64,000 nucleotides of DNA from Phytoactinopolyspora alkaliphila. GTDB lineage: Bacteria; Actinomycetota; Actinomycetes; Jiangellales; Jiangellaceae. The stretch lies in contig NZ_JAAGOB010000006.1 in the NCBI RefSeq assembly GCF_010550695.1, positions 1 to 64,000 on the forward strand, written 5' to 3'. Below are positions 41,623 through 57,289 of this stretch, one piece after another. The notes below the pieces were generated by a model. The model saw only the letters and a program-made list of their open reading frames with translations. It was not told where the DNA came from and did not search any database. The first letter of the stretch is position 1, and each line of letters starts with the position of its first letter. Both the position numbers and the translations under genes were made by a program.

Positions 41623-42711
41623 TCATGTTTGTGACTCGTCGAGCGATTCGAGGAGATTTCCGGCTGCGGCGTCCCGGCCGCGCGGGGCGATGAAGATCTT
41701 GTCCACAGCACCGATCTTCTGCTCATCCAGCGCCGCGGAGAACTCGTCGAGGCCGAAGAAGGCCGTGGTGAGCCGGTCGAGTCCCAGGCGAGGGAGGAGG
41801 GCGACGGCGCGCTGGTGGGTGTACGGGTTGATGACCGATCCGAGCAGCGTGAGCTCGCGGCTGAACAGCTCGTGCGGGCTGATCACGGCGGTGTCACCTG
41901 GCGCCGCGACGCCGAAGACGAGCACCCGTCCGCCCCGGGCCGCCATCGCCACGGAGGTCTCGAGAACGGCGGCCGAGCCGACGGCGTCGATCACAGCGGG
42001 AAACCCCAACCCGCCCGTCGACGCCAGCGCGGCGTCGGCGCATCCGTCCTGGTGCGGATCGAGAGCGAGATCCGCCCCCATCCGCTGGGCCAGCTCACGC
42101 CGGCTGAGCTGAGGGTCCATCACCACAATGGGCGAGGCTCCGAGCAGCCGGCCGAGCGCGACGAGGATCGCCCCGGCGGGTCCGCAGCCATGGATCAGCA
42201 GCGGCTCGCCGGAGGTGACGCCGAGCCGATCCAGGCCATGTATGCAACACGCGACTGGTTCGCACAGTGCGCCGATCCATGGTGGTGTCTCAGCGGGCAG
42301 GCGGTAGGCGATCCGCGCGGGCGCCACCATGCTCTCGGTCATGCCGCCGTCCAGCCGCACGCCATAGCCGCGCTTGGCCCCGCAGAGGTGCTCCCGACCG
42401 GCGCGGCAGTAAGAACAGGCCGTGCAGTACCGGTGCGGCTCGACGGTGACCAGGTCCCCGACCTGGACTCCAGTGGCGTCGGATCCGAGCTCCACCACCC
42501 GGCCGCATATCTCGTGCCCGAGTACGACGCCGTCCTCGGCGGTGAACTGGCCCGCGACGATGTGCGCATCAGTTCCGCAGACACCCACGGCGAGCGGAGC
42601 GATGCGGACGCTGGCCGGGGCCAGGGCGGGCGGGGGCTCAGAGACGGTCTCGTATCCGCCCGGCGCACGGAACCGCAGTGACGTCACGTGGGCGACGGAC
42701 GGGTCAGCCAT
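41623..42711 (-). CDS. Zinc-dependent alcohol/polyol dehydrogenase (MDR family), operon gene 10
   Basis: A 362-residue NAD(P)-dependent medium-chain dehydrogenase. Catalytic zinc motif CGTDAHI is near residue 48 and GHEICGRVVELG near 70. The structural zinc Cys cluster (CTACSYCRAGREHLC) is near 98-112. The nucleotide-binding loop is GCGPAG near 175. It is closest in type to sorbitol, threonine or idonate dehydrogenases, so a hydroxyl of a sugar or sugar acid is the probable target. ATG 42711 overlaps the GntR gene end by 8 bp. It is the last gene of the operon and likely acts in the same pathway as the aldolases and kinase upstream. Confidence 0.85.
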   Translation of the reverse strand: MADPSVAHVTSLRFRAPGGYETVSEPPPALAPASVRIAPLAVGVCGTDAHIVAGQFTAEDGVVLGHEICGRVVELGSDATGVQVGDLVTVEPHRYCTACSYCRAGREHLCGAKRGYGVRLDGGMTESMVAPARIAYRLPAETPPWIGALCEPVACCIHGLDRLGVTSGEPLLIHGCGPAGAILVALGRLLGASPIVVMDPQLSRRELAQRMGADLALDPHQDGCADAALASTGGLGFPAVIDAVGSAAVLETSVAMAARGGRVLVFGVAAPGDTAVISPHELFSRELTLLGSVINPYTHQRAVALLPRLGLDRLTTAFFGLDEFSAALDEQKIGAVDKIFIAPRGRDAAAGNLLESLDESQT

Positions 42712-43366
42712 CGGAGCGCAGGATCTCGGTGAGCCGGGCGATGTGCCGCCGCGCTGCCGCCTCGCTGGCGTCGGGATCTCCCGCCGCGACGGCCTCGAAG
42801 ATCTCGCGATGGTCATGCAGGGCGCGGTCCATTCCACCACTGACACTGGTGGAGCGCATTGCGATCATGATCTGGCCTTGGATCTGGTCGAGCATCCGGG
42901 CGATAACCGGACTGTTGGCGGACTGCCGGATCTCGCGGTGGAAAGCGGCGTCCACGTCGATGTGCCGGTCGAAGTCGCCGCTCGCCACCACCTCGTCGTG
43001 CTCGGCCAGATTGTCCAGGAGGCGGCGCCGGAGGTCATGCGTGAAGTGTGGAGCCGCCAGCCGTGCCGCCATGCCCTCGAGCGCTTCCCGCGCCTCGTAC
43101 AGGCTGACCAGCTCGGCGCGGCCGATGCTGGAGATCACCGCTCCGCGGTTGAGGGTCTCCTGGGCCAGTCCTTCACGGACCAGCTGGAGCACCGCGTCGC
43201 GTACCGGGCTGCGGCTCACGCCGAGCTCGCGGGCGATGGCCGGCACGGACAGACGCTCGCCCGGTTCGAGTCCGCCGGTGAGGATGCGATGCCGCAGGGT
43301 TCGATAGACCCGCTCGCCGACCCGGACACCTGGCCGAAGGAGAGGCCCACTCGCCACGTCTGTCAC
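42704..43366 (-). CDS. GntR-family transcriptional regulator (FadR/FCD subfamily)
   Basis: A 220-residue regulator. The N-terminal winged helix has GERLSVPAIARELGVSRSPVRDAVLQL and the C-terminal FCD domain has the metal-binding His pattern (DAAFHREI; DRALHDHREIF; ARRHI). FCD regulators usually sense small organic or sugar acids. It lies inside the operon, 17 bp after the DUF2090 aldolase, so it may autoregulate part of the operon or respond to a pathway acid. No clear palindrome was seen in the short gap before it. Confidence 0.88.
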   Translation of the reverse strand: MTDVASGPLLRPGVRVGERVYRTLRHRILTGGLEPGERLSVPAIARELGVSRSPVRDAVLQLVREGLAQETLNRGAVISSIGRAELVSLYEAREALEGMAARLAAPHFTHDLRRRLLDNLAEHDEVVASGDFDRHIDVDAAFHREIRQSANSPVIARMLDQIQGQIMIAMRSTSVSGGMDRALHDHREIFEAVAAGDPDASEAAARRHIARLTEILRSDG

Positions 43367-43383
43367 TTGTCTGCCTCCAGCCT

Positions 43384-44316
43384 TCAGGACCCGGATCCGG
43401 CGACCGCCACGTCTTCGACCGGTGCCGCCTGGCGCTGGAAGGTCGAGACGAACCGGGCGTACTGTTCGGCGACCCGGTTCACGGCAGTCCCATGATCCAC
43501 GGTCCCGGCCAGGAGGTCACGCATCGCTTCCCACCAGATGCTGCGCCCGATGGCGAATCCGGTGAATCCGGAGCGCGCGGCGTCTGCGAGCCAGCCGTCC
43601 ACGACCGGGCCGGGGGCGCCGGCGCCGAGGAGGATGCACTCGCCTCCGCCGGCGGCCGCGAGCTGCACCGCGGCGGCGTAGGACGCTTCAGCTCCGGATT
43701 CCGCGCCCAGGTGTTCCAGCTTCCAGACGTCGACGGGTACCTTCGCGGAGATCTCTTCCATGCCGCGCAGGATCAGGCCGGGCCGGATCTTCTCGTCGAA
43801 CACGGCGTGATCGCCCGCGGCGGCCTCCTGCGCGGGTGTCGGCGGTACCAGCAACTCGAACAGGAACCGCGATCCGGCGTCGTGAGCGAGCCGGGCCGTC
43901 TGCTTGAGGCGACGCAGCTGGAGCTCGTTCGCCTCCCGGTCACCCTCCGGGTTGTATCGCACCAGGACTTTGGCCAGGTCGGGTTGGTGATACGCGAGAT
44001 GCGAACCGACGTCGTCCGGTTCGTCCTCGTAGATCTCCCGCCCGGCGCGCTCGAGCGGCATGCTGACGGTGACGCCGAGCGCGCGAGCCCGCTCGGCCAC
44101 ACCGGGTCCGAGCGTGGCGTCGACGAGTATGGCGGCCGACGCACGGTCAACCGTGCCTGACTCGACAGCCGCCAGAAGGCCGTCGAGCACCATGTGCTTG
44201 CCGCGGCAGATCGCGGCGCGCTGGTCCGCCGTGGCCGGACTGGTGTGGGAGTACAGCGCCTGGGTCAGCCAGGGCCGCTGGTCGACGGCGAGAACGAGAA
44301 GGTGGGGGTGGTTCAC
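43384..44316 (-). CDS. DUF2090-family aldolase (2-deoxy-5-keto-gluconate-6-phosphate aldolase-like)
   Basis: A 310-residue TIM-barrel protein like the C-terminal aldolase half of bifunctional IolC proteins. There that domain cleaves 2-deoxy-5-keto-D-gluconate 6-phosphate to dihydroxyacetone phosphate and malonic semialdehyde. Visible signatures are LLVLAVDQRPW at the start, LVDATLGPG, a central KVLVRYNPEGD strand, VWKLEHLG, and the family ending GFAIGRSIWWEAMRDLLAG. GTG 44316 overlaps the upstream dehydrogenase stop (GTGA). With the kinase (48398) and aldehyde dehydrogenase (49558) it could complete a kinase-aldolase-oxidation sequence. The inositol genes iolB, iolD and iolE are absent, so myo-inositol is not the obvious substrate. 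Confidence 0.78.
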   Translation of the reverse strand: MNHPHLLVLAVDQRPWLTQALYSHTSPATADQRAAICRGKHMVLDGLLAAVESGTVDRASAAILVDATLGPGVAERARALGVTVSMPLERAGREIYEDEPDDVGSHLAYHQPDLAKVLVRYNPEGDREANELQLRRLKQTARLAHDAGSRFLFELLVPPTPAQEAAAGDHAVFDEKIRPGLILRGMEEISAKVPVDVWKLEHLGAESGAEASYAAAVQLAAAGGGECILLGAGAPGPVVDGWLADAARSGFTGFAIGRSIWWEAMRDLLAGTVDHGTAVNRVAEQYARFVSTFQRQAAPVEDVAVAGSGS

Positions 44317-45311
44317 GAGGCTGCTCCGGTGACGATGAATGGTTTGAGGTGGACACCCGCGACGAACGTGTCGAAGGCTTCCGGTAGTTCGGCCAGGGTC
44401 AGTGGGTGCGCGAGCTTGTCCCGCAGGAACGCGCCGCACCTGCGGAGCACCTCCCAGTTGCCGTCCACCTCGTCGAGGGGAAAGTAGAACGACCGCACGG
44501 TGAAGCAGTCGGTGCGCCGCCACCGGGGCGTCGCCGGCATCGTGTACGGGTCGTTCGACTCACCCAGCGCGAGGACAGCGCCTCCGGGAACGATGACCCG
44601 CTGGGCGAGCGCCCGCGCCTGCCCGGCGCCGCTGACCTCCACGGCGATGTCGTACTGGTTGTGACTCTCCAGATCGGACGCCTCCTTGGCGCCGAGTTCC
44701 AGCGCGAGTGCCAGCCTGCCGGCGTTCGGGTCGTAGGCGTGGATCTCGGGTATCCCGAGGGCCTGGGCGACGGCAATCACGCCGAGGCCCAGCGGGCCGC
44801 AACCGACCACGATCGCCGATTGCGGCGGCTCGGACTGCGTGCGCAACGCGAGCCGGAGCCCGTGTGCCGCCGTGCCTACGGTGTCGAGGCCCAGAACCGC
44901 GACGTCCAGTGGGACGTCGTCAGGCACGGGGATGACGCACTGTGCCGGGACGTCAACGTAGGTGGCGAAGCCGCCGTCCCGCTGCCATCCGATGAGCTCA
45001 CCGAGGTCAAGGCAGCGGTTTGTCTGCCCGCGGCGGCATTGGCCGCACTGCCCGCAGTACACCGGGATGTAGACGATGGCACGCGTCCCGGCGGCTGTGC
45101 CGGTGCTGTCGGCCGCGTCGACGACGACACCGGCGATCTCATGGCCCGGAACCACCGGTGAGCCGCTGGCCAGCAGCCGCTTGTCCGAGCCGCACAGCGC
45201 GCATACCTCCACCCGGAGACGCACCTCACCGGCTCGTACCGGTCCCATCGCCACGTCCTGGAACGTGATCACTCCGTCCCCGGAGAACCTGGCCGTGGTG
45301 TTCGTCGTCAT
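44313..45311 (-). CDS. Zinc-dependent dehydrogenase (MDR family), operon gene 7
   Basis: A 332-residue medium-chain dehydrogenase. The catalytic zinc site has CALCGSDKRL near residue 37 and PGHEIAGVV near 55. The structural Cys cluster (CGQCGQCRRGQTNRC) is near 85-99. The coenzyme loop is GCGPLGLGV near 168. It differs clearly from the other dehydrogenase of the operon (41623-42711), so two different oxidation steps are likely. ATG 45311 overlaps the permease stop by 4 bp. Confidence 0.85.
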   Translation of the reverse strand: MTTNTTARFSGDGVITFQDVAMGPVRAGEVRLRVEVCALCGSDKRLLASGSPVVPGHEIAGVVVDAADSTGTAAGTRAIVYIPVYCGQCGQCRRGQTNRCLDLGELIGWQRDGGFATYVDVPAQCVIPVPDDVPLDVAVLGLDTVGTAAHGLRLALRTQSEPPQSAIVVGCGPLGLGVIAVAQALGIPEIHAYDPNAGRLALALELGAKEASDLESHNQYDIAVEVSGAGQARALAQRVIVPGGAVLALGESNDPYTMPATPRWRRTDCFTVRSFYFPLDEVDGNWEVLRRCGAFLRDKLAHPLTLAELPEAFDTFVAGVHLKPFIVTGAAS

Positions 45312-46147
45312 TTCACCGCACCTCCGGTGAGTCCGCGGACCAGCCAGCGCTGCGCGAAGATCGTCAGCAGGAAGGCCGGCAGCGAGATCAGGGCGCTCGC
45401 TGCCATGAGGCCGCCGTAGTCGCTGGCGCCCTGGCCGATGAAGTTGAACGCGATGACCGGTAGCGGCAGCGTGTCGTTGTTCGCCAGCGCCAGTGCGAAC
45501 AGGAAGAAGTTCCACGAGAAGATGAAACTCAAGGTCACCGCGACCGACAGCCCAGGAAGCGCGAGCGGCAGCACGACGTTCCTGAACCGCTGAATGACGC
45601 TGCAGCCGTCCAGCATCGCCGCCTCCTCGAGACTGATCGGGATGTCCTCGAAGAAGGGGATGAGCAGCCAGATGCACAGCGGCAGGGTGATGATCAGGTG
45701 CGCGGCGATCAGCAGCAAGAAGTTCAGCCCGGTGTTCGACGGTGCGCCGATGTTCACCGACAGCACGAACAGCGGCAGGACGAACATGACTCCCGGCGCC
45801 ATCCGCGCGAGCAACGTGAGGAAACCGACGCTGGCAAGCCGGCGCCGGACGATCACGTAGGCGGCCGGCACTCCCAGGATGAGACCGAGCAGGGTCGAAC
45901 CGCCCGCGATGACGAAGCTGTTGCGGATGTAATACACGAACGCGAAGCGCTCGAACAGGTTGGTGAAATTGCCCAGGGTCAGCGGCGTGGTGATGTCGAA
46001 GATGGAACCGGTGATGTCGACGTTGCGGCGGAACGCCGACCACAGCATGAACACCACGGGCCCGAAGAAGACCAGCGCCGCGACAAGGTAGCCGGCGTAG
46101 ACCGGAACGATCCGGCGGCCACGGGCCTGGGCGGTGTCAGTACTCAA
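45308..46147 (-). CDS. Carbohydrate ABC transporter permease (MalG/UgpE-like)
   Basis: A 279-residue inner-membrane permease with about six helices. The cytoplasmic EAA loop that contacts the ATPase is EEAAMLDGCSVIQRFRNVVLP near residue 182. It ends with a typical QRWLVRGLTGGAVK. It pairs with the permease at 46137-47093, with which it overlaps by 11 bp. No cognate ATPase gene exists in the operon; a shared MsiK-type ATPase encoded elsewhere is likely, as in many actinobacterial sugar importers. Confidence 0.9.
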   Translation of the reverse strand: MSTDTAQARGRRIVPVYAGYLVAALVFFGPVVFMLWSAFRRNVDITGSIFDITTPLTLGNFTNLFERFAFVYYIRNSFVIAGGSTLLGLILGVPAAYVIVRRRLASVGFLTLLARMAPGVMFVLPLFVLSVNIGAPSNTGLNFLLLIAAHLIITLPLCIWLLIPFFEDIPISLEEAAMLDGCSVIQRFRNVVLPLALPGLSVAVTLSFIFSWNFFLFALALANNDTLPLPVIAFNFIGQGASDYGGLMAASALISLPAFLLTIFAQRWLVRGLTGGAVK

Positions 46148-47093
46148 TGGTCTGCCTCCTTCGCCACCAGGTGAACAGGCCCGCGATCGCGACCACCAGC
46201 ACCAGCAGGCTGAGCTGCAGAGCGGCGGCGTAGCTGGCCTGCTGGTCGATGAACGCGGTCCGGTATCCGTACACGTTGAGCGTGTTGGTCGAGTTGACGG
46301 GACCGCCCTGAGTCATCACGTAAACCGTGTCGAAGAACCGGACCAGGTCCACGGTGCGCAGCAGCACGGCGACCGAGATCACCGGCATCAGCAACGGAAG
46401 CCCGACGTGCCGGGCCTTGCGCCAGTTCGATGCTCCGTCGATCGAGGCGGCCTCGAACGGATCGCTCGGCAATGAGCGGATTCCGGCCGCGATGATCAGG
46501 GCCATGAACGGCGTCCATTGCCAGATGTCGACAATGGCGATCGACCAGGGCGCGATGTTGGGGTCGCCGAGCCACACCACGGGGTCGATACCGACCGCGT
46601 CCAGAATCTGATTGGCGGCGCCGAGCGAGGGATCGTAGATCAGCAGCCACACCAGGGCGACCGCCACAGACGCGGTGATCGCGGGGATCAGCATCAGGCC
46701 CTGGAAGATCCGCCGGCCCGGAACGTCGATGCTGAGCAGGTAGCCGAGGGCCAGCCCGAGAAGCGTCTCGACCACGAGGCACACCACGAACAGGAACAGG
46801 GTGACCCGCACCGAGTTCCAGAACAGCGGATCGTCGAGCATCCGGGAGAAGTTCGCCCAGCCGACGAAACCGCTGTTCGAGCCGTCCGGCCGCCGGTCGG
46901 AGACCGACAGCCAGACGGTGTACAGCACCGGCAGGATGACCAGGAAACCCGTGACGATCACGGCCGGCAGCATCAGCGGCCAGACCCCCCGGGCCACCGG
47001 AGCCGGACCGGCTCGCCGGCGTGTGGGCCGGTGGTCCTTGCCGTGCTCGCCTCGGCGAGCGGTCTTCGTCGACGTTGTCATGGTGGCCGTCAT
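46137..47093 (-). CDS. Carbohydrate ABC transporter permease (MalF/UgpA-like)
   Basis: A 318-residue permease. A basic, disordered N-terminus (about 36 residues) precedes six helices. The EAA loop is FEAASIDGASNWRKARHVGLP near residue 217, and the family segment FDTVYVMTQGGPVNSTNTL is near 257. It starts 3 bp after the binding-protein stop. Confidence 0.9.
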   Translation of the reverse strand: MTATMTTSTKTARRGEHGKDHRPTRRRAGPAPVARGVWPLMLPAVIVTGFLVILPVLYTVWLSVSDRRPDGSNSGFVGWANFSRMLDDPLFWNSVRVTLFLFVVCLVVETLLGLALGYLLSIDVPGRRIFQGLMLIPAITASVAVALVWLLIYDPSLGAANQILDAVGIDPVVWLGDPNIAPWSIAIVDIWQWTPFMALIIAAGIRSLPSDPFEAASIDGASNWRKARHVGLPLLMPVISVAVLLRTVDLVRFFDTVYVMTQGGPVNSTNTLNVYGYRTAFIDQQASYAAALQLSLLVLVVAIAGLFTWWRRRQTIEY

Positions 47094-47096
47094 TCG

Positions 47097-48401
47097 TTAT
47101 CCGTCTGCAAGCAGCGGTTCGAGGCCGGACTGGATCTCGGCTGCCGCATCCTCCGGAGTCGCCTCACCGAGGATCACCTTGCCGACGGCGTCGCCGATGA
47201 CCTGGCGCATAGCCGGTGCATTGGAACCGACCGGACCCACCTCGACGTTGCCGTTCTCCTGAAGGTCGGCGACGGCTTCCCGCCAGGCCTGCTGCGTCGG
47301 CGTGTCCAGGGTGTCGGTGTAGGCCGGGTCCTCGGCGACGGACGCGCGCGGCGGGGCGATGTCCGCCTCGGTGAGGGCCAGCTGAGTCTCGGGGCTCGTC
47401 GCCCACTCCAGGAACTGCCAGGCGGCCTCCTTGTTCTCCGAGTGCGGCGACATGGCCAGGCCCCAGGAGAGCACGGTGGGCGCGGGGCCGGCGGAGCCGG
47501 CCGGCACCGGGACGATGCCGATGTGCTCGGTCACGGTCGAGCTTCCGGGGTCGGCGACGCTGTTCAGCTCGTTGCTGGACTCGAGCATCATCGCGGCCTT
47601 GCCCTGGGCGAACAGGGTCGAAGACTCGGTGAACGAGTAGTTGATCACCCCGGGTGGCCCGGACTCCCGGGCGAGGGTCGCGTACTGGTCGATGGCCTCG
47701 ACGGCGCCCGGCTCGTCGAAGTTGGGAGCGCCCTGATCATCGGTGAACTCAACGCCGTTGCCGTGGACGAACGTGCCGAACGTGAACGGGAGGGCCGCTG
47801 CCGCGCCGCGCAATGTGATGGGGGTGATGCCAGGATCGCGATCGGCGATCTCCGCCGCCGTGTCCAGAAGCTCGGTGAGCGTCTCCGGCGGGGTCAGGCC
47901 CCACTCGTCGAACAGGTCTGTCCGGTAGTAGAGCACCGGACCTTCGACGTTCACCGGCACGGCGTACGTGGTCCCGTCGACTTTCATGCCGTCGATGGCG
48001 CCGCGGCTGAAGTCGTCGGCGTCATATTCCGACGGGGCGCCGCTGATGTAGTCGTCCAGCGGCTCGTAGTATCCCGACGTCGCGAAGAGCGGCCCCTCGC
48101 GGGACGGGAGCGTCATGAAGACGTCCATGGCCGAACTCTTCGACTGGAGGTTGAGCTGGATCTTGTCCCGCGCCTGTTGCTCGGCGAAGGTCTGGACGTC
48201 CACCTGAATGCCCGTCTCCTCTTCGAACTCGGGGATCAGCGGCTCGATGCCTCGCTGGAAGGGGTGGTTCGACATCACCAGCGTGACCGAGCCCTCTCCG
48301 CCCTCCCCCTCGGACATGGCGTCGGACGGACTGCCGCAGGCCGGCAGGACGAGTGCTCCGGCCACGACGGCGCAGGAGATGACTGTTTTCCGAGTACTCA
48401 T
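47097..48401 (-). CDS. ABC transporter sugar-binding lipoprotein
   Basis: A 434-residue extracellular solute-binding protein (family 1, MalE/UgpB type), tethered by a lipid on Cys22 (lipobox LPAC, residues 19-22). It shows the usual EEETGIQVDVQTF start, YAVPVNVEGPVLYYRTDLFDEWGL in the hinge region, and EAAWQFLEWATSPETQ near the end. It captures the substrate for the two permeases downstream. The ligand is not predictable from motifs; the operon context points to a sugar or sugar-like acid. ATG 48401 overlaps the kinase stop (ATGA). Confidence 0.9.
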   Translation of the reverse strand: MSTRKTVISCAVVAGALVLPACGSPSDAMSEGEGGEGSVTLVMSNHPFQRGIEPLIPEFEEETGIQVDVQTFAEQQARDKIQLNLQSKSSAMDVFMTLPSREGPLFATSGYYEPLDDYISGAPSEYDADDFSRGAIDGMKVDGTTYAVPVNVEGPVLYYRTDLFDEWGLTPPETLTELLDTAAEIADRDPGITPITLRGAAAALPFTFGTFVHGNGVEFTDDQGAPNFDEPGAVEAIDQYATLARESGPPGVINYSFTESSTLFAQGKAAMMLESSNELNSVADPGSSTVTEHIGIVPVPAGSAGPAPTVLSWGLAMSPHSENKEAAWQFLEWATSPETQLALTEADIAPPRASVAEDPAYTDTLDTPTQQAWREAVADLQENGNVEVGPVGSNAPAMRQVIGDAVGKVILGEATPEDAAAEIQSGLEPLLADG

Positions 48402-49558
48402 GATTCCTCCGTTGGAGTGGTGAGTGTGGAAGCCGTTGATGCGCTGGGCCGCACGACGAGCGGTGCGAGCCAGGAGTGGAACGAGCGAAGATCACGTGGA
48501 TCGGACGTTCGCCAGCGGTCAGGGAGTGTCCGGGTGCGCCCGGCCGCGTCGTGCAGTGGGATCAGCGGATAGGTCACCGCGTAGTCGTCGCCGGGGCATC
48601 GGTCGATGCCCACCATCACCGCCGTGCCGGACGATGGGCCCGTGAGCACCCGCGCCGCCTCGACGCCGGCACGCCTGGCCTCGACGGCGTCGACCTCGCT
48701 GGTCAGCGCGGAAACACAGCGTTGAGCGACCCCCAGCACTTCGCCGCGGGCGGGCAGGCCGAGCTCGGTGGTGACCAGCTCGGCCAGGTTCCTCGCCACG
48801 CCACCCGTGATGAGGGTGGTGTGGTTCGTGGCGTGCACCGGCGCGGCAGTGAGCTCGGGCGCGAAGCCCTCGCTGACGACCACCAGTGCTCGGCCGTGCT
48901 GGCCGACCAGTCGCCGCACATCGGCCAGGAACGCGTCACGGTGGAACGGCAGCTCGGGCGGATACACGCGATGGACCGGGTGCTGCACGTCGACCGGCAG
49001 CGTGGCGGCGAGCGCGAGCCAGCCGGTCGCACGGCCCATCGTCTCGACGATCCGCACCGGCTCCACCGAGGTCATGGCGCGGTGGTCGCGGGCGATGTCA
49101 GGCAGGACCGTGGTGAGGTAGCGGGCTGCCGAGGCGAACCCCGGCGCGTGATCGACGCCGAACAGATCGTTGTCGATGGTCTTAGGAATGCCCGCCGCCC
49201 GCAGCGGCACCTCCCGGTCTCGCGCCCGGTCCGCCACCGCCGCGAGGAGCGCCATGGTGCCGTTCCCGCCGATCAGCGAGATGCCGTCGACGGAGTGCTC
49301 GACGACAGCGTTGACGATGGCGTCGACGTCAGCCTGGCTGGTGGCCCGGCGTCCTCCGCCGAGCCACGATCCGCCGGCGTTCTCGGCACCGGCAGGCACC
49401 TCGACGTCGGCCAGCCGATGGAAGTCGCCGGCCACCAGGGCATCCGGTCCTCCACGCGCCACCAGCACCTCATGCCGGCCCGCGCCGCGAAGGAACCCCG
49501 CCACGCTGCGGTTCACGACGGCCGTCGGCGCCCCGGTCTGGCCGAGCAGAAGGCGCAT
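48398..49558 (-). CDS. Phosphofructokinase-family kinase (PfkA fold) with atypical donor-site residues
   Basis: A 386-residue PfkA-type phosphotransferase. GQTGAPTAVVN is at the N-terminus, GGNGT at residues 97-101 and PKTIDND at 125-131, with the catalytic Asp in TIDND. METMGR-like ETMGR is at 172-176. In classical ATP-PFKs the first motif is GGDGS and the second PGTIDND; PPi-dependent forms have GGDD and PKTIDND. Here Gly is kept at the first position, Lys occurs at the second, and Asp of GGDG is Asn. Donor and acceptor are therefore uncertain. In context it could phosphorylate a ketose or keto-sugar acid before aldol cleavage. ATG 49558 overlaps the aldehyde dehydrogenase stop (TGATG). Confidence 0.85.
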   Translation of the reverse strand: MRLLLGQTGAPTAVVNRSVAGFLRGAGRHEVLVARGGPDALVAGDFHRLADVEVPAGAENAGGSWLGGGRRATSQADVDAIVNAVVEHSVDGISLIGGNGTMALLAAVADRARDREVPLRAAGIPKTIDNDLFGVDHAPGFASAARYLTTVLPDIARDHRAMTSVEPVRIVETMGRATGWLALAATLPVDVQHPVHRVYPPELPFHRDAFLADVRRLVGQHGRALVVVSEGFAPELTAAPVHATNHTTLITGGVARNLAELVTTELGLPARGEVLGVAQRCVSALTSEVDAVEARRAGVEAARVLTGPSSGTAVMVGIDRCPGDDYAVTYPLIPLHDAAGRTRTLPDRWRTSDPRDLRSFHSWLAPLVVRPSASTASTLTTPTEES

Positions 49559-51033
49559 CACGCACCCCCGACGGCCGTGGTGCGGTAGTGCCGGAACTCG
49601 TCGAGACCCCAGCGGCCGCCCTCGTATCCGATACCGGACATCCCGGTACCGCCGAACGGCGCGCCGGGATAGTTGGGGGTGCCGGTGTTGATCCCGACGA
49701 TGCCCGCCCTTAGCCGGCGCGCCACCGCGCCCGCGGCGTCGAGGTCCGTCCCGCACACGTAGCCGGCCAAGCCGTAGCCGGTGTCGCGGTGCTCGGCGAC
49801 GGCCGAATCCACGTCGGCGAAGGTCCTGATCGCCGCGATCGGCCCGAAGATCTCCTCGGTGACGACAGCGGCGGATGCCGGGACGTCCACGAGAACGGTA
49901 GGCGCCACGTAGTGACCGCGTACCGGCAGCGGCACGGCGTCCGAGACGATCCGCGCGCCGCCGGCGACGGCCTCGTCCACCAGGCCGCTCAGCCGGGCGG
50001 GGTCACCCGCCGGCGCCATCGGCCCGAGACCCGTGCCGTCGTCGAGCGGGTTCCCGACGGAGACGGTGGCCGTGGCGGCCACGAACGCGTCGACGAAATC
50101 GGCGGCGACCTCCTGAGCGACGAAGATCTGATTCGCGGCGATACATGACTGCCCGTTGTTCCGGTACTTGGCCACCATCAGCGTCTGCGCCGCCTGTTCC
50201 GGATCCGCGTCGGCGAGAACGATGAACGGCGCGCACCCGCCCAGTTCCATGACCGTGCGGAGGAATCGGGGTGCCGCTGCGGCCGCGACGATTCTGCCGA
50301 CGCGGGTGGACCCGGTGAAGGACACCGCGCCCAGCCGGGAGTCGGCCAGCCACGGCTCCACCACATCGGACGGATCGCCGAGGACGGTGTTGACGACGCC
50401 GGCCGGTAGGTGACGGTCGATGAGCGCGCTGAGGACCAGAGACGACACGGGAGCCAGCTCGGACGGCTTGACGACGGCGGTGCATCCTGCGGCCAGCGCC
50501 GCGGCGAGCTTGCGTGCGGGGATGGACACGGGGAAATTCCACGGTGTCAGGACGGCGACGACACCGGCCGGTTCGGCCTCGACGATGTGCGCATGCCCGG
50601 CCACCGCGTCGAACCGCTCGGAGTCCTGCTTCTCGACGAGATCGGCGAAGACCCTGAAGTAGACGGCGGACAGCCCGAGCTCCGCCGCTGATTCGGCGAC
50701 TCTCTTGCCGGTCTCGCGGCTGATCAGCTCCGGCCACGATGTCGTCGTAGTGGCGGCGTCGAGGTCGTCGGCGATCCGCCGGAGACCGTCGGCGCGTGCG
50801 GAGGGAGGGGTGGCCGCCCACGTCCGGCCGGCATGTGCCGCCGCTGTCATTGCGGCCGCCGCCTCGGCTTCGCCGCCCACGGCAGTGTCGGACCACACCT
50901 CACCGTCGATCGGGCTGCGCAAGCTCATCCGCCGGAGCCCGTCCGCCCGGGCCTCGCCGGCGATCCGCACCGACGTCGACGCGGCGAGCACGTCGGCGAC
51001 GAGCTGGTCGATGACACTGGTTCGGGGGTTCAC
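49558..51033 (-). CDS. NAD(P)-dependent aldehyde dehydrogenase (GabD-like)
   Basis: A 491-residue aldehyde dehydrogenase. Visible motifs are TPWNFPVSIPARKLAAAL and KPSELAP (coenzyme site), FTGSTRVG, catalytic Glu in MELGGCAPF and nucleophile Cys in NNGQSCIAANQ. It resembles succinate-semialdehyde dehydrogenases. In sulfoglycolysis, GabD-like enzymes oxidise sulfolactaldehyde to sulfolactate. In other pathways they oxidise semialdehydes made by aldolases. GTG 51033 has GGAGG upstream and overlaps the preceding stop (GTGA). Confidence 0.88.
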   Translation of the reverse strand: MNPRTSVIDQLVADVLAASTSVRIAGEARADGLRRMSLRSPIDGEVWSDTAVGGEAEAAAAMTAAAHAGRTWAATPPSARADGLRRIADDLDAATTTTSWPELISRETGKRVAESAAELGLSAVYFRVFADLVEKQDSERFDAVAGHAHIVEAEPAGVVAVLTPWNFPVSIPARKLAAALAAGCTAVVKPSELAPVSSLVLSALIDRHLPAGVVNTVLGDPSDVVEPWLADSRLGAVSFTGSTRVGRIVAAAAAPRFLRTVMELGGCAPFIVLADADPEQAAQTLMVAKYRNNGQSCIAANQIFVAQEVAADFVDAFVAATATVSVGNPLDDGTGLGPMAPAGDPARLSGLVDEAVAGGARIVSDAVPLPVRGHYVAPTVLVDVPASAAVVTEEIFGPIAAIRTFADVDSAVAEHRDTGYGLAGYVCGTDLDAAGAVARRLRAGIVGINTGTPNYPGAPFGGTGMSGIGYEGGRWGLDEFRHYRTTAVGGA

Positions 51034-52229
51034 ACAGCCTCCTCGGTTTCGGCCAGAGCGTCGAGATCGATGTCGAGGCCCAATCCAGGACCGTCCGGCA
51101 CCCGAACGGTCCCGTGGCCGGTCAGCAACGTGTCGGTGCCGGCTCGCATCGGGTTGGCCCGGATGTCCCACTCCACCAGGCCGGTGCCTGGAACGGCGGC
51201 CGCCACTTGGATGGTGGCCGCGGTCGCCACCGCGCCGTTGTAGAGGTGGGGGTTGACGATCACGCCGGCCCGGTGGGCGAGCTCGTGCACCCGCAGGTAT
51301 TCGGTGGGGCCGCCGACCTTGGAGAGGTCCGGCTGGACGATGTCGGCGGCCCGTCGCTCGATGTACGGCGCGAACGCCGCCGCGCCGTAGAGGTTCTCGC
51401 CCGTGGCGACCGGTACTCCGCCCGCCTCGCGCAGCCTCGCGAGATCGTGCGGATCGTCCCCGCTGATGGGCTCCTCGATCCAGGCGACGCCTACGTCGCG
51501 CAGCAAGGGCGCCATCTCCAAGGCCTCGGTCAACGACCAGGCCTGGTTGGCGTCACCGAAGATCTCGACGCCCTGACCTAGGATCGCCCGGGCGAGCCGC
51601 AGGTTCGACTCGTCGCGTTCCGCGCCGAAACCGAGCTTGACCTTGACCGCCGTCAGCCCGAGCTCGAGGCAGCGTTGCGCCGAGGTCTCCACGCCGGCCG
51701 GGCCCAGACTCGACCCGTAGACGGGGAGTTCAGAGGCGAGGGATCCACCGAGTGCGTCGGCGAGCGAGACGCCGGCGTGCCGGGCCGCGATGTCCCACAA
51801 GGCGGTGTCGACAGCGCTGATGGCCTGGTGAATCGGCCCGAGCGCGCCCCATTGCCGGCCGATCGGAGACAGGATCGAGACCAGGTGTTCATGGGCGGCC
51901 ACGGGGTCCGTGAACTCGCGCCCGACTACCAGAGGAGCCACTCCCTCATCGATGGTCGCCACCCGCTCCCGCCAGGCCCAGGCGGGGTAATTGACCCACG
52001 ACTCGCCCATGCCGCGGCTGCCGTCGGCGAGTTCGATGACCACGACGGCCATCACCCGGTGGCCGAGGGGTCCGAAAGACATCGCCACCCCATCCGTCAC
52101 CGGCGTCCGGAAGACCCGGCAGGTGACGGCAGCGACCGAGCTGGCCGGCAGTGGCGGCGGCGGTGCCGTGAGCCGGTCGTCCGCGGACAGCTCGGAGGCC
52201 ACGGAGCGCGACTGTTCGTTTATAAACAT
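51030..52229 (-). CDS. Mandelate racemase/muconate-lactonising (enolase-superfamily) enzyme
   Basis: A 399-residue member of the enolase superfamily, which abstracts a proton next to a carboxylate; many members dehydrate sugar acids. KVK at 196-198 supplies the general bases. Metal ligands are Asp226 (GDANQAW), Glu252 (EEP) and Glu278 (GEN), with His328 in NPHLYNG. It is the first gene of the ten-gene operon. The ATG at 52229 lacks a clear ribosome-binding site and lies in a DeoR-like operator region; the first 30 residues are not conserved-looking. The mRNA may be leaderless, or the true start may lie further in. Confidence 0.85.
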   Translation of the reverse strand: MFINEQSRSVASELSADDRLTAPPPPLPASSVAAVTCRVFRTPVTDGVAMSFGPLGHRVMAVVVIELADGSRGMGESWVNYPAWAWRERVATIDEGVAPLVVGREFTDPVAAHEHLVSILSPIGRQWGALGPIHQAISAVDTALWDIAARHAGVSLADALGGSLASELPVYGSSLGPAGVETSAQRCLELGLTAVKVKLGFGAERDESNLRLARAILGQGVEIFGDANQAWSLTEALEMAPLLRDVGVAWIEEPISGDDPHDLARLREAGGVPVATGENLYGAAAFAPYIERRAADIVQPDLSKVGGPTEYLRVHELAHRAGVIVNPHLYNGAVATAATIQVAAAVPGTGLVEWDIRANPMRAGTDTLLTGHGTVRVPDGPGLGLDIDLDALAETEEAV

Positions 52230-52244
52230 TGCATGCAGTGTTCG
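52213..52244. promoter_or_regulatory. Candidate DeoR-family operator at the operon start
   Basis: Two direct TGTTCG half-sites (52213-52218 and 52239-52244) lie 26 bp apart. Between them are the palindromes GTTTATAAAC (52219-52228) and TGCATGCA. DeoR-family regulators such as GlpR recognise TGTTCG-type half-sites. The DeoR gene is directly upstream. Confidence 0.45.
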
Positions 52245-52298
52245 TGACGACAGCCGCAGATGTCAAGAGGGACCCGGAAAGTCGTGCCGGCGCCGCGC

Positions 52299-53111
52299 TC
52301 AGGCGACGACGATGCGAGCGCCGTGTTCCCGCAGGCGCGAGGTAAGCCGATCGCTGAACTGAGCGTCGGTGACCACCGTGTCGATCTGCTCGATGTCGCA
52401 GACCCGGACGGTGCCGGGGGCGCTTTCCTTCGACGCGTCGCAGACGAGCACGACATGGTCCGCGACATCGAGCAGCGCCTGCTTGACGCCCAGCTCGAGC
52501 TCCGAGCGGACGTACACGCCGCGGCCGTCGATCGACGCCACGCCAAGCATCATGACGTTCAGCCGCAGATTGCCGACGAACTGTGCGGCGCTCTGGCCAA
52601 TGAGGGCCTGGTTCTCCTGGGACAGCTCGCCGCCGATGGCGATCACCCGCACGTCGGGACGGGAAAGCATCGTGGCCAGCACGGGAACGGAATGCGTGAC
52701 AATGCAGCCGGCGAACTGATCCGGCAGGGCGCTGGCGACCTCCAGCGCGGTGGTGCCCGCGTCGATGCCCACGGTGTCGCCGGGCGAGATCATCTGCGCT
52801 GCGGCGCGTCCGATCCGGTGCTTGGCTTCGCCGTTGATGGAAGCGCGGGTGAGGAACGCGGGGTTCGCGCGCGCCTCGGGGGGAAGGCTGGCGCCCCCGT
52901 GCACCAGTACGGCCTCCCCGCTGGCTGCCAGGCGCCGCAGGTCGCGACGGACCGTCATCTCCGACACGTGCAGCTGGCGGCTGATGTCGGAGACCGCTAC
53001 GTGGCCTGAGCGGCGCAGTTGATTGACGATCGCGGCTCGTCGCTGCGGCGCGGCGTCGTAGCGGAGGCCGGCGTCGCCGTCGGTCTCTCCGGGGCTGTCC
53101 AACACATGCAC
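52299..53111 (-). CDS. DeoR-family transcriptional regulator
   Basis: A regulator of about 270 residues. The N-terminal helix-turn-helix has AAIVNQLRRSGHVAVSDISRQLHVSEMTVRRDLRRL. The sugar-phosphate-sensing C-terminal domain has GDTVGIDAGTT and the ISxGG-like AIGGELSQENQALIG. DeoR regulators are usually repressors released by a phosphosugar intermediate. It lies 69 bp upstream of the ten-gene operon on the same strand, and divergent from the YihT-like aldolase gene, so it may control both. The start is uncertain: GTG 53111 or GTG 53105. In E. coli the sulfoquinovose regulator CsqR (YihW) belongs to the same family. Confidence 0.85.
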   Translation of the reverse strand: MHVLDSPGETDGDAGLRYDAAPQRRAAIVNQLRRSGHVAVSDISRQLHVSEMTVRRDLRRLAASGEAVLVHGGASLPPEARANPAFLTRASINGEAKHRIGRAAAQMISPGDTVGIDAGTTALEVASALPDQFAGCIVTHSVPVLATMLSRPDVRVIAIGGELSQENQALIGQSAAQFVGNLRLNVMMLGVASIDGRGVYVRSELELGVKQALLDVADHVVLVCDASKESAPGTVRVCDIEQIDTVVTDAQFSDRLTSRLREHGARIVVA

Positions 53112-53213
53112 AGCGTACCGGGGATGTGAATGTCCATCCAATAATGGTAGTTTTCGAACATCTTCTGCGCGGTGCCGTTGTTCCGCGCCGCTGTCAATGA
53201 GAGGAATCGCGAC
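53112..53213. promoter_or_regulatory. Divergent promoter region of deoR-type and aldolase genes
   Basis: A 102-bp gap. It contains CGAACA at 53155-53160, the reverse complement of the TGTTCG half-site found at 52213 and 52239, inside TTTTCGAACA. No full palindrome is evident. Confidence 0.4.
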
Positions 53214-54080
53214 GTGAACGATCCGATTGACCGACTGCGCCGACCATCCGGTGGTTTCGCGATGCTGGCCATCGATCAGCGCGAGGCGTTGCGCGCCATG
53301 ATCGGCGACCTGCGTGGGCGGGATGTCTCCGACGGTGAGGTCACCCATTTCAAGGTGGCCGCGGCTCGCGCGTTGACGCCGCACGCATCCGCGGTCCTCG
53401 TCGACCACCAGTTCGGCTGGGACGCCGTCCTTGACGAGAAGGCCATCGACCCTGGATGTGCACTCATCACGGCTGCTGACCGGTTCATCCCGGGGCCGGG
53501 GGAGTTCGTCGCCGACGCGGTCATCGACGAGGACGTCGACCCGGCAGTGGTGCGGGAACAAGGTGCCGTGGCGATGAAACTGCTGGTCATCTGGCGGCCG
53601 GACGGTGACCCCGCCGCCAGGAAGGCCATGGTCGAGTCGTTTGTCGCCCGATGCCGTGACCACGGCCTGGCCAGCATCATCGAGCCGGTGTCCCGCGCGC
53701 CCCGAGCCGGTGGACCGTATGACGTCGACGCCGGCATCATCGCGGCGGCGCGTGAACTCGGCGCCCTGGGCGCGGACATCTACAAGACGGAAGTGCCGAC
53801 ACACGGCTCCGGACCCGACGACGAGATCCTCACCCGGTCCCGGGAGCTCGACGACGCGGTGGACGGCCACTGGGTCGTCCTCTCCTCCGGCGTGCGGGCG
53901 GAGCGGTTCCCGCACGCCGTGGAGCTCGCCTGCCGTGCCGGCGCATCCGGATTCCTCGCCGGGCGGGCCGTCTGGGCCTCGGTGGTCGGAAGCGACGACC
54001 TCGACGCCGACCTTCACCGTGTCGCCGTTCCGGCGTTGCGGCGGCTGACTCGTGTGGTGGACGAGGCCGTGTCTCGCTGA
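53214..54080 (+). CDS. YihT/LacD-like class I aldolase, probably sulfofructose-phosphate aldolase type
   Basis: A 288-residue TIM-barrel aldolase that closely resembles E. coli YihT (292 residues), which cleaves 6-deoxy-6-sulfofructose 1-phosphate to dihydroxyacetone phosphate and sulfolactaldehyde. Matching blocks are SGGFAMLAIDQREALRAM (12-29), AADRFIPGPG, MKLLVIWRPDGD, GLASIIEPVSRAPR, GADIYKTEVP with Schiff-base Lys191 (Lys193 in YihT), and ASGFLAGRAVWASVVG with Arg251 (Arg253 in YihT, a sulfonate contact). Tagatose-bisphosphate aldolases (LacD) share some of these, so the substrate is not proven. GTG 53214 has GAGAGGAA 7 nt upstream. A TauE/SafE exporter gene follows 19 bp later. Confidence 0.82.
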   Translation: MNDPIDRLRRPSGGFAMLAIDQREALRAMIGDLRGRDVSDGEVTHFKVAAARALTPHASAVLVDHQFGWDAVLDEKAIDPGCALITAADRFIPGPGEFVADAVIDEDVDPAVVREQGAVAMKLLVIWRPDGDPAARKAMVESFVARCRDHGLASIIEPVSRAPRAGGPYDVDAGIIAAARELGALGADIYKTEVPTHGSGPDDEILTRSRELDDAVDGHWVVLSSGVRAERFPHAVELACRAGASGFLAGRAVWASVVGSDDLDADLHRVAVPALRRLTRVVDEAVSR

Positions 54081-54099
54081 CCGCGAGACCATCCTTGTC

Positions 54100-54816
54100 A
54101 TGCAGCCGGCTCTCGTGGTGATCGCCGTGGTGACCGGAGCGACGCTCCAGCGCAGCACCGGGCTGGGGTTCGCTCTCGTCTCCGGGCCGTTCCTCGTTCT
54201 CGTCCTCTCGCCCTACGACGGCGTCGCCCTGGCCAACGTGCTGTCACTGATCACCTGCGTGATCGTGCTCGCGTCCACCTACCGGGATCTCGATTTCGGG
54301 CTGGCCGCCAGACTCTCTCTCGGCGTCATGGTCGCTGTGCCCGTCGGCGCACTCGTGGCGCGGTCGCTGCCCTCTCCGGCCCTGATGGTTCTGGTGGGGG
54401 CATTGGCAACCGTAGCGGTGGCCGTGGTGGCCATGGGCAGGCCGCTGGCCTTGCTCGCGCACCGCTCGGGGTCGCTGACGGCCGGATTCGTCTCCGGTTT
54501 CAGTAACGTCACCGCCGGTGTCGGAGGGCCCGCCCTGGCTGTCTACGGAGCGAGCACCCGCTGGTCGCGTGTCAGTTTCGTGCCGACGGTCCAGCTCGTG
54601 GGGATCGTCGCCAATGTGCTGTCCCTGATCGCGAAGCGTGACGCCCACCTTCCGGTCCAGCTCGTGCTGGGGTGCAGCGCCGCGGTGATCATCGGAACCA
54701 TCGCCGGCCGGTACCTCTCCGGAGTCATGGGTGAGCGGACCGGCCGGGCGATCGTTCTCTCCCTGGCGGCTATCGGCGGCCTGATGTCCATCGTCAAGGG
54801 GCTGGTGTCATGGTGA
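54100..54816 (+). CDS. TauE/SafE-family membrane exporter
   Basis: A 238-residue integral membrane protein with about seven or eight hydrophobic segments. It has the family-type duplicated arrangement ([20 protein letters not shown] early; [21 protein letters not shown] in the second half). The family exports sulfite, sulfoacetate or other organosulfonates, though other anions are possible. The frame opens at 54052 inside the aldolase gene; ATG 54100 avoids this overlap. Its position 19 bp after the YihT-like aldolase suggests it removes the sulfonated or acidic end product. Confidence 0.82.
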
Positions 54817-56212: not shown

Positions 56213-57289
56213 ATGCCTATTTTCGCGCGCGCTACGCGCATTCATGTTCGAACTGTTGTCTCGGCGGGGCTTGCCAGCACGCTGGCTGGGGGAGCCTTGA
56301 TCGCCGCCGGCCTGGTGTCGACCGCCTCGGCCGACGACCATTTCGCGGACTTCTATGAGGGTAAGCACCCGAAGACCTGTACGGAGGCCGGCCTCAACGG
56401 CGACCTGCTCGTCAAGGTGGAGTCCGAGAACGGCGAGGGCAAGTCGGAGAACGGAGTCACGGGGATCATCTCCGGAGACGACAACCAGTACCTCAACCTG
56501 GTGGTGGAAGGCGACCTGATCATCACAGGCACGATGATCAAGGGTGGTCCCGCCTACCGGATCTACTACGGTGGCCCGTACGAGAACATGCACGCGCCGT
56601 ACCTTCACAACAGCGGCGAACTGATCGAGTTTGTCGACCCGACTGGCAAGAAAAAGAAGAAGAAGCCGGCGATCAGCAACTGGTTCGTCTGCGGTGAAGA
56701 GCCGGGCGGCGGCGATGAGAACGGCGCTGACGAGAACGGTGACGTGGACGGTGCCGATGAGAACGGCGATGTGGACGGTGCCGATGAGAACGGTGACGTG
56801 GACGGTGCCGATGAGAACGGTGACGTGGACGGCGCTGACGAGAACGGTGATGTGGACGGCGCTGACGAGAACGGCGATGTGGACGGCGCCGATGAGAACG
56901 GCGATGTGGACGGCGCTGACGAGAACGGCGATGTGGACGGTGCCGATGAGAACGGTGATGTGGACGGCGCTGACGAGAACGGTGATGTGGACGGCGCTGA
57001 CGAGAACGGCGATGTGGACGGCGCTGACGAGAATGGTGCTGACGAGGGCAACGTGGACGGCACCGAGATGGGCGGCGACAACGGCGACGTGGACGGCACC
57101 GAGATCGGTGGCGACAACGGCGACGTGAACGGTGACGACGACGGTACCGAAGAGGGCGACGAAGGCGGCGAGGAGCTGCCGGACACCGGTTCGGCCACGG
57201 CTCTCTGGCTCGTCGGTGGGGCAGCGCTGCTGGCACTCGGTGGGGCGCTGCTGGTGTTCGGCCGGCGTACCTTCCGGGCTACCGTCTAG
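56213..57289 (+). CDS. LPXTG-anchored protein with acidic Asp/Asn/Gly repeats
   Basis: A 358-residue exported protein. A signal peptide ends near TASADD (about residue 40). A small folded domain of about 115 residues (FYEGKHPKTCTEAGLNGDL ... NWFVCGEE, with two Cys that may pair) precedes eleven DENGDVDGA nonapeptides and a related acidic tail. LPDTG is at 322-326, then a membrane helix and a basic end. The DxNGDxDG pattern resembles calcium-binding loops of EF-hand or thrombospondin type 3 repeats, so calcium-stiffened stalk is a reasonable guess. ATG 56213 lacks a strong ribosome-binding site. It is monocistronic between prfB and ftsE, with a terminator downstream. The small domain is unassigned. 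Confidence 0.82.
   Translation: MPIFARATRIHVRTVVSAGLASTLAGGALIAAGLVSTASADDHFADFYEGKHPKTCTEAGLNGDLLVKVESENGEGKSENGVTGIISGDDNQYLNLVVEGDLIITGTMIKGGPAYRIYYGGPYENMHAPYLHNSGELIEFVDPTGKKKKKKPAISNWFVCGEEPGGGDENGADENGDVDGADENGDVDGADENGDVDGADENGDVDGADENGDVDGADENGDVDGADENGDVDGADENGDVDGADENGDVDGADENGDVDGADENGDVDGADENGADEGNVDGTEMGGDNGDVDGTEIGGDNGDVNGDDDGTEEGDEGGEELPDTGSATALWLVGGAALLALGGALLVFGRRTFRATV
56729..57025 (+). repeat. Eleven 27-bp tandem repeats encoding DENGDVDGA
   Basis: Eleven head-to-tail units of exactly 27 bp, varying only at third codon positions (GGT/GGC, GAT/GAC, GCC/GCT). The encoded nonapeptide is invariant. Synonymous drift with a constant peptide points to selection on the protein. 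Confidence 0.92.

Follow-up and report, generated by a model that had tools for sequence, protein, structure and literature searches.

A gene cluster of Phytoactinopolyspora alkaliphila that may serve the breakdown of a sulfonated sugar other than sulfoquinovose

Introduction

The sulfo-Embden-Meyerhof-Parnas (sulfo-EMP) pathway of Arthrobacter and other Actinobacteria relies on YihS, YihV, YihT, GabD, and TauE, while the sulfo-EMP2 pathway relies on SqvD, SqiK, and SqiA. The sulfofucolytic Entner-Doudoroff (ED) pathway of Paracoccus wurundjeri uses SfcH, SfcD, SfcF, and SfcE. Here, we describe a 13-gene cluster in a 64,000-nucleotide stretch of DNA from the actinobacterium Phytoactinopolyspora alkaliphila (hereafter the window), which lies on a single contig of a 5.5-Mb genome (G000). 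We estimate a probability of roughly 0.55 that this cluster is derived from sulfo-EMP and serves a sulfonated sugar other than sulfoquinovose; the likeliest candidate is a sulfonated sugar alcohol, or else a rarer sulfohexose.

The cluster shares with sulfo-EMP a YihT-type aldolase, a GabD-family aldehyde dehydrogenase (ALDH), TauE, a DeoR regulator, and import by an ATP-binding cassette (ABC) transporter. It differs in having a PfkA-type rather than a PfkB-type (YihV) kinase, a Zn-dependent alcohol dehydrogenase (ADH) where an isomerase is expected, another type of importer, an ALDH outside the true sulfolactaldehyde (SLA) dehydrogenase group, and no sulfoquinovosidase gene. With sulfo-EMP2, it has the kinase family (PF00365) in common, but both of its aldolases belong to class I families rather than to the class II of SqiA, and an SqvD-like gene is absent. 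With the sulfofucolytic ED pathway, it shares an enolase-superfamily enzyme, but its operon lacks the short-chain dehydrogenase/reductase (SDR), lactonase, and PF03328 aldolase. Thus, although its anatomy works like sulfo-EMP, with a YihT-clade aldolase and a sulfo-EMP-type TauE, it fails as sulfo-EMP for want of the isomerase and the YihV kinase, and as sulfo-EMP2 for want of SqvD and a class II aldolase.

Results

A first-pass annotation, made from the letters of the window alone, had placed 13 genes between 41623 and 54816, and a domain search finds every one of them there, in the families assigned, in the divergent layout described, and with gaps of at most 17 bp. Ten minus-strand genes form one operon from 52229 down to 41623; most neighbors overlap by 4 bp, and the widest gap is 17 bp. 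Upstream, DeoR is encoded in the same orientation as the operon, and the aldolase and TauE genes diverge from it.

The aldolase ALD1 (PF01791; 53172..54080, plus strand) likely starts at 53214, with a GTG after AGAGGAA. Its reported likeness to YihT stands: Its best solved relatives are the YihT structures 7ag1, 7ag7, and 1to3 (E values down to 7e-85), while LacD structures match only at 4e-16. In a maximum-likelihood tree, ALD1 shares a clade (88/91) with Enterobacter YihT and the aldolases of actinobacterial sulfo-EMP clusters, and other YihT-like groups, encoded beside glycosidases, transketolase, or tartrate dehydrogenase, fall apart from this clade. The phylogenetic check for a placement among LacD-type enzymes thus came out in favor of YihT, and we reject a LacD/tagatose pathway. 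Judged by column conservation, not residue by residue against the sulfonate ligands of YihT, ALD1 keeps 87 of the 90 alignment columns that are invariant in the sulfofructose-phosphate (SFP) aldolase set, among them four that tell this set apart from other YihT-like groups. The reference sulfo-EMP neighborhoods encode a PfkB kinase, a GH31-like protein, an SLA dehydrogenase about 60% identical to that of Arthrobacter, TauE, and a non-YihS isomerase-like protein that we call SqvD-like by resemblance. The window genome also has a second YihT-like aldolase (46%; locus L078, G000:C29:298500-318400), which belongs to a different clade and adjoins a transketolase-like gene, glycosidase-like genes, and an ABC importer.

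The exporter and the regulator have similar affinities. TauE (PF01925, TauE/SafE or TSUP family; 54052..54816, plus strand, with a likely start at 54100 or 54115 rather than 54052) forms a clade (99/99) with five TauE proteins of the sulfo-EMP kind, and 12 TSUP paralogues taken as controls from related genomes lie outside it. DeoR (PF08220/PF00455; 52299..53105, minus strand) lies inside the actinobacterial sulfo-EMP DeoR clade (96/94). Between the divergent genes is a putative DeoR operator, TGGTAGTTTTCGAACATCTTCTG (53145..53167), with similar sites in the related genomes G018, G017, and G001; its half-site resembles half-sites in sulfo-EMP cluster promoters (compared by eye, unscored). Thus, the divergent aldolase-TauE pair, together with the placement of DeoR and its site, points to a sulfo-EMP ancestor.

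The ALDH (PF00171, GabD-like; 49558..51033, minus strand) keeps the equivalents of Arg171 and Arg289 of RlGabD. These two arginines have been proposed as sulfonate binders, and the same pair also binds carboxylates, as in succinate semialdehyde dehydrogenase (SSADH) (PMC10599462). ALDHs encoded in tartrate-dehydrogenase clusters, and those at two related loci of actinobacteria, do not have the pair.

The order is represented by 22 genomes in our comparison set, all from one family. As the first-pass annotation had proposed, these were searched for conserved co-occurrence, and four further genomes proved to contain the gene set, partial or complete; its arrangement is therefore not a matter of chance. 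The G001 cluster has all genes except TauE, and that of G017 is missing ALDH, ADH2, and TauE. G018 has only DeoR, ALD1, the kinase, the ABC importer, ADH1, GntR, and ADH2. The most diverged cluster (G021; 39 to 55% identity) is a single short one with only DeoR, ALD1, the ABC importer, ADH1, and the kinase, which ties ALD1 to the other core genes. The core therefore comprises DeoR, ALD1, the importer (solute-binding protein and permeases), ADH1, and the kinase, and the accessory genes are those for the enolase-superfamily enzyme, ALDH, ALD2, GntR, ADH2, and TauE. An apparent frameshift in the ALD1 gene of G017 is a run of N at an assembly gap, which rules out a pseudogene there.

The core kinase (PF00365; 48398..49558, minus strand), a proposed sulfoketose 1-kinase, is rare, with 5 of the 394 genomes of the class matching at E <= 1e-40. 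The first-pass annotation had thought it odd. It is indeed not a YihV-type enzyme, but it is less odd than supposed, because the sulfofructose kinase SqiK of sulfo-EMP2 is also in PF00365 (PMC10599462). Compared with Escherichia coli PfkA, the kinase has the ATP-type Gly after GGN and the pyrophosphate-type Lys in PKTIDND. Three residues of PfkA, R162, R243, and H249, are ligands of the 6-phosphate; two of these are lost in the window kinase (R162 to P and H249 to V), and R243 is kept, which fits a ketose without a 6-phosphate. A scan of genome contigs with this kinase matched only distant planctomycete enzymes.

The importer consists of a solute-binding protein (47097..48401) and two permeases (46137..47093 and 45308..46147; all minus strand), and no ABC ATPase gene is encoded in the cluster, a lack that the first-pass annotation does not mention. 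The nearest structures to the solute-binding protein are 4rya, whose title names sorbitol, and 5iai, which we take to be a polyol-binding protein as well, ahead of SmoF; the importer thus resembles the polyol type. Both permeases are found in 5/5 clusters and are related to those of modules in Cereibacter and Shinella (about 43% for the first and 42 to 45% for the second). ADH1 (44313..45311, minus strand), also in 5/5 clusters, has readable Zn ligands and an NAD-type Asp (AYD). It is 41% identical to the ADH of the Shinella module, and its homologues on plasmids, at about 40% identity, belong to Rhizobiaceae and Variovorax clusters that encode the same ABC type. The dehydrogenases had been left unexplained by the known scheme; ADH1 is in the core and plausibly stands in for the isomerase.

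These three core components would also suit a neutral polyol pathway, in which a hexitol or pentitol is oxidized to a ketose, phosphorylated to ketose-1-phosphate, and cleaved to dihydroxyacetone phosphate (DHAP) plus glyceraldehyde or glycolaldehyde. The nearest structures to the solute-binding protein are polyol-binding, ADH1 is in the core, and the kinase lacks two of three 6-phosphate ligands. However, ALD1 retains the SFP-aldolase signature and ALDH the two anion-binding arginines, and the sulfo-EMP-type TauE would be left unexplained. We consider a neutral substrate improbable.

The isomerase reported as missing is missing here too. Only genomes with a sulfoquinovose-type cluster carry the SqvD-like isomerase; G000, G017, and G018 lack it, and the single GlcNAc-2-epimerase-family (PF07221) protein of the window genome gives no YihS match. 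The cluster has no sulfoquinovosidase gene, although GH31 proteins were not searched for genome-wide. Furthermore, G001 and G021 hold a window-type cluster and a separate sulfoquinovose-type cluster at different loci. Another substrate is therefore probable for the window type, and sulfoquinovose itself is unlikely. Hybrid EMP1/EMP2 clusters for sulfoquinovose are known in Actinobacteria (PMC10599462), and the family of the window kinase, PF00365, would suit an ordinary sulfoquinovose pathway of this kind whose isomerase and sulfoquinovosidase are encoded at other genomic loci. Such a pathway is nonetheless very improbable, given the lack of an isomerase, the absence of a true SLA dehydrogenase from G000, G017, and G018, the different ABC type, and the two relatives that carry both cluster types. 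The canonical sulfoquinovose route is rejected on the first and last of these grounds. In one sulfoquinovose-type cluster (L072, G020:C1:796000-815900), a SuyB-like gene adjoins the SLA dehydrogenase gene, which suggests that a single organism takes the breakdown all the way to sulfite.

Related modules without an isomerase, with an ADH, a YihV-like kinase (48% in Shinella), and a class I aldolase, are found in Shinella, Sinorhizobium, Rhizobium, Neorhizobium, and Variovorax, and variously carry an SSADH-type ALDH, a mandelate racemase-type (MR) enzyme, and TSUP. The Rhizobiaceae/Variovorax module (e.g., Shinella HZN7 pShin-03) shares with the window a polyol-type ABC importer, an ADH1 homologue, a kinase, a class I aldolase, an SSADH-type ALDH, MR, and TSUP. 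It differs in its YihV-type kinase, LacD-type (8tnf-like) aldolase, LacI regulator, own ATPase, and extra SDR. The solute-binding proteins of the window and the parallel modules are nearest polyol-type structures, and in all modules examined, a dehydrogenase takes the place of the expected isomerase. The ALDH arginine pair is also kept in the Shinella and Cereibacter modules. It is possible, and we propose it tentatively, that these clusters represent an undescribed sulfosugar branch, entered from a sulfonated polyol by dehydrogenation and assembled in parallel in Actinobacteria (PfkA-type kinase plus YihT-type aldolase) and in Rhizobiaceae/Variovorax (YihV-type plus LacD-type). On plasmids of Rhizobium CC-CFT758 (L089) and Neorhizobium NCHU2750 (L095), sulfatases and a formylglycine-generating enzyme adjoin the ADH-kinase-aldolase-MR-TSUP module.

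The Cereibacter module combines an ABC importer, a Zn-dependent ADH (42% to ADH2), SSADH, tartrate dehydrogenase, a YihT-type aldolase, and a YihV-like kinase. It bears on the main rival explanation, in which the substrate is a carboxylated analogue: An aldonate-like compound would be oxidized to a keto-aldonate, phosphorylated at its terminal CH2OH, and cleaved to DHAP and an acid semialdehyde that ALDH oxidizes. Consistent with this, tartrate dehydrogenase is found beside ALDH and aldolase in Cereibacter and other relatives, the arginine pair binds carboxylates too, and the window enolase-superfamily enzyme is of the acid-sugar type. In addition, family matches show that DUF2090, the family of ALD2, includes the inositol-pathway aldolase domain, which acts on a carboxylated ketose phosphate. 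Against it speak the sulfo-EMP placements of the aldolase, TauE, and DeoR and the lack of a tartrate dehydrogenase in the window operon. On balance, we regard a carboxylated substrate as unlikely.

The enolase-superfamily enzyme (PF02746/PF13378; 51030..52229) heads the main operon. Its KxK motif, metal ligands, and His/Asp residues are readable, and its nearest structures are 3ddm, 3ozm, and 3h12. It is 28 to 30% identical to dgoD-type dehydratases of actinobacterial ED-like sulfo clusters (a comparison that did not include SfcF itself). A role as sulfolactate racemase or sulfo-lyase was considered, since the genes for MR and TSUP lie side by side in Rhizobiaceae, but it has no direct evidence in its favor. 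The other accessory genes of the operon, also on the minus strand, encode the class I aldolase ALD2 (PF09863; 43384..44316), whose candidate catalytic Lys residues are kept across distant relatives, a GntR/FCD regulator (PF00392/PF07729; 42704..43366), and the Zn-dependent ADH2 (PF08240/PF00107; 41623..42711 or 42687), which matches the sole ADH of the Cereibacter module at the 42% given above.

A palindrome around ACATTGCATGCAGTGTT (52225..52242; expected occurrences in the window, 0.01) is a probable GntR operator. The palindrome ACAYTGCATGCARTGT heads the main operon, with one site each, in exactly the four genomes that have GntR in the cluster, and no further exact sites occur elsewhere in those four genomes; it is likely the GntR operator. 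Because the operator overlaps the annotated ATG of the MR gene, the start of this gene is uncertain, and the true start may lie downstream.

Several other loci combine sulfosugar genes. L097 (G021:C39:305000-324900) and L096 (G008:C32:24000-43900) encode a true SLA dehydrogenase, an SDR, a dgoD-type dehydratase, a DHDPS-family aldolase, an SMP-30 lactonase, and a SuyB-like (altronate-dehydratase-family) protein, with an additional Ldh_2-family dehydrogenase in L097. Each looks like a sulfofucolytic-sulfolactate lyase pathway, which has been reported for Proteobacteria (PMC12421959). A further parallel to the window is the sulfofucose/sulfolactate cluster of P. wurundjeri, which also encodes a Zn-dehydrogenase-like "threonine dehydrogenase" that is induced on sulfofucose and inactive on SLA, as well as a PF00294 kinase and a PF01791 aldolase without induction on sulfofucose (PMC12421959). 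On plasmid pYA7-1a of Arthrobacter sp. YA7-1 (L084, 80950-101804), ED-type genes (SDR, dgoD, DHDPS, and SMP-30) and EMP-type genes (PfkB and YihT-like aldolase) share an ABC importer, SSADH, and TauE. Elsewhere in the window (56213-57289), a probable sortase-anchored surface protein carries some dozen repeats of the DGADENGDV type and has a C terminus resembling LPDTG.

Discussion

We infer the substrate and every enzymatic step from the sequence; gene content, the conserved core, the placement of aldolase, TauE, and DeoR, and the conservation of key residues are observed directly. In the pathway that we favor, a sulfonated substrate would be taken up by the polyol-type ABC importer and oxidized by the NAD-dependent ADH1 to a 6-sulfo-ketohexose. 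The PfkA-type kinase would phosphorylate this sulfoketose at C1, and the YihT-type aldolase would cleave the product into DHAP, for use by the cell, and SLA. ALDH would then oxidize SLA to sulfolactate for export by TauE. The enolase-superfamily enzyme, ALD2, and ADH2, with GntR, may constitute an accessory ED-like branch.

Several points weigh against this reading. No natural sulfohexitol was found in the literature searched. In the window alone is TauE a neighbor of the aldolase, and two of the five clusters include ALDH; therefore, sulfolactate formation and export are not conserved. ALDH is 41 to 44% identical to true SLA dehydrogenases and falls outside that group at the cutoff used. The kinase is matched to SqiK at the level of the family, PF00365. 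Aldolases of Cereibacter and Sinorhizobium meliloti, to which no substrate has been assigned, also lie inside the SFP clade, so membership signals an anionic ketose-1-phosphate more safely than sulfofructose-1-phosphate, and in the Cereibacter module, tartrate dehydrogenase takes the place of the exporter. Thus, the sulfo-EMP-like route to sulfolactate suggested by the first-pass annotation is borne out in part: TauE and DeoR are of the sulfo-EMP kind and ALDH has the arginine pair, but TauE and ALDH are outside the conserved core.

A YihT-type aldolase by itself is insufficient to call sulfoquinovose degradation. If our proposal is true, the combination of polyol-type ABC importer, Zn-dependent ADH, kinase, YihT- or LacD-type aldolase, GabD, and TSUP would provide a genomic signature for finding such pathways. 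The organic sulfur cycle would also gain an unmapped class of sulfonated sugars, probably polyols, and if the branch was indeed assembled in parallel in Actinobacteria and Rhizobiaceae/Variovorax, sulfonated polyols would be real environmental substrates.

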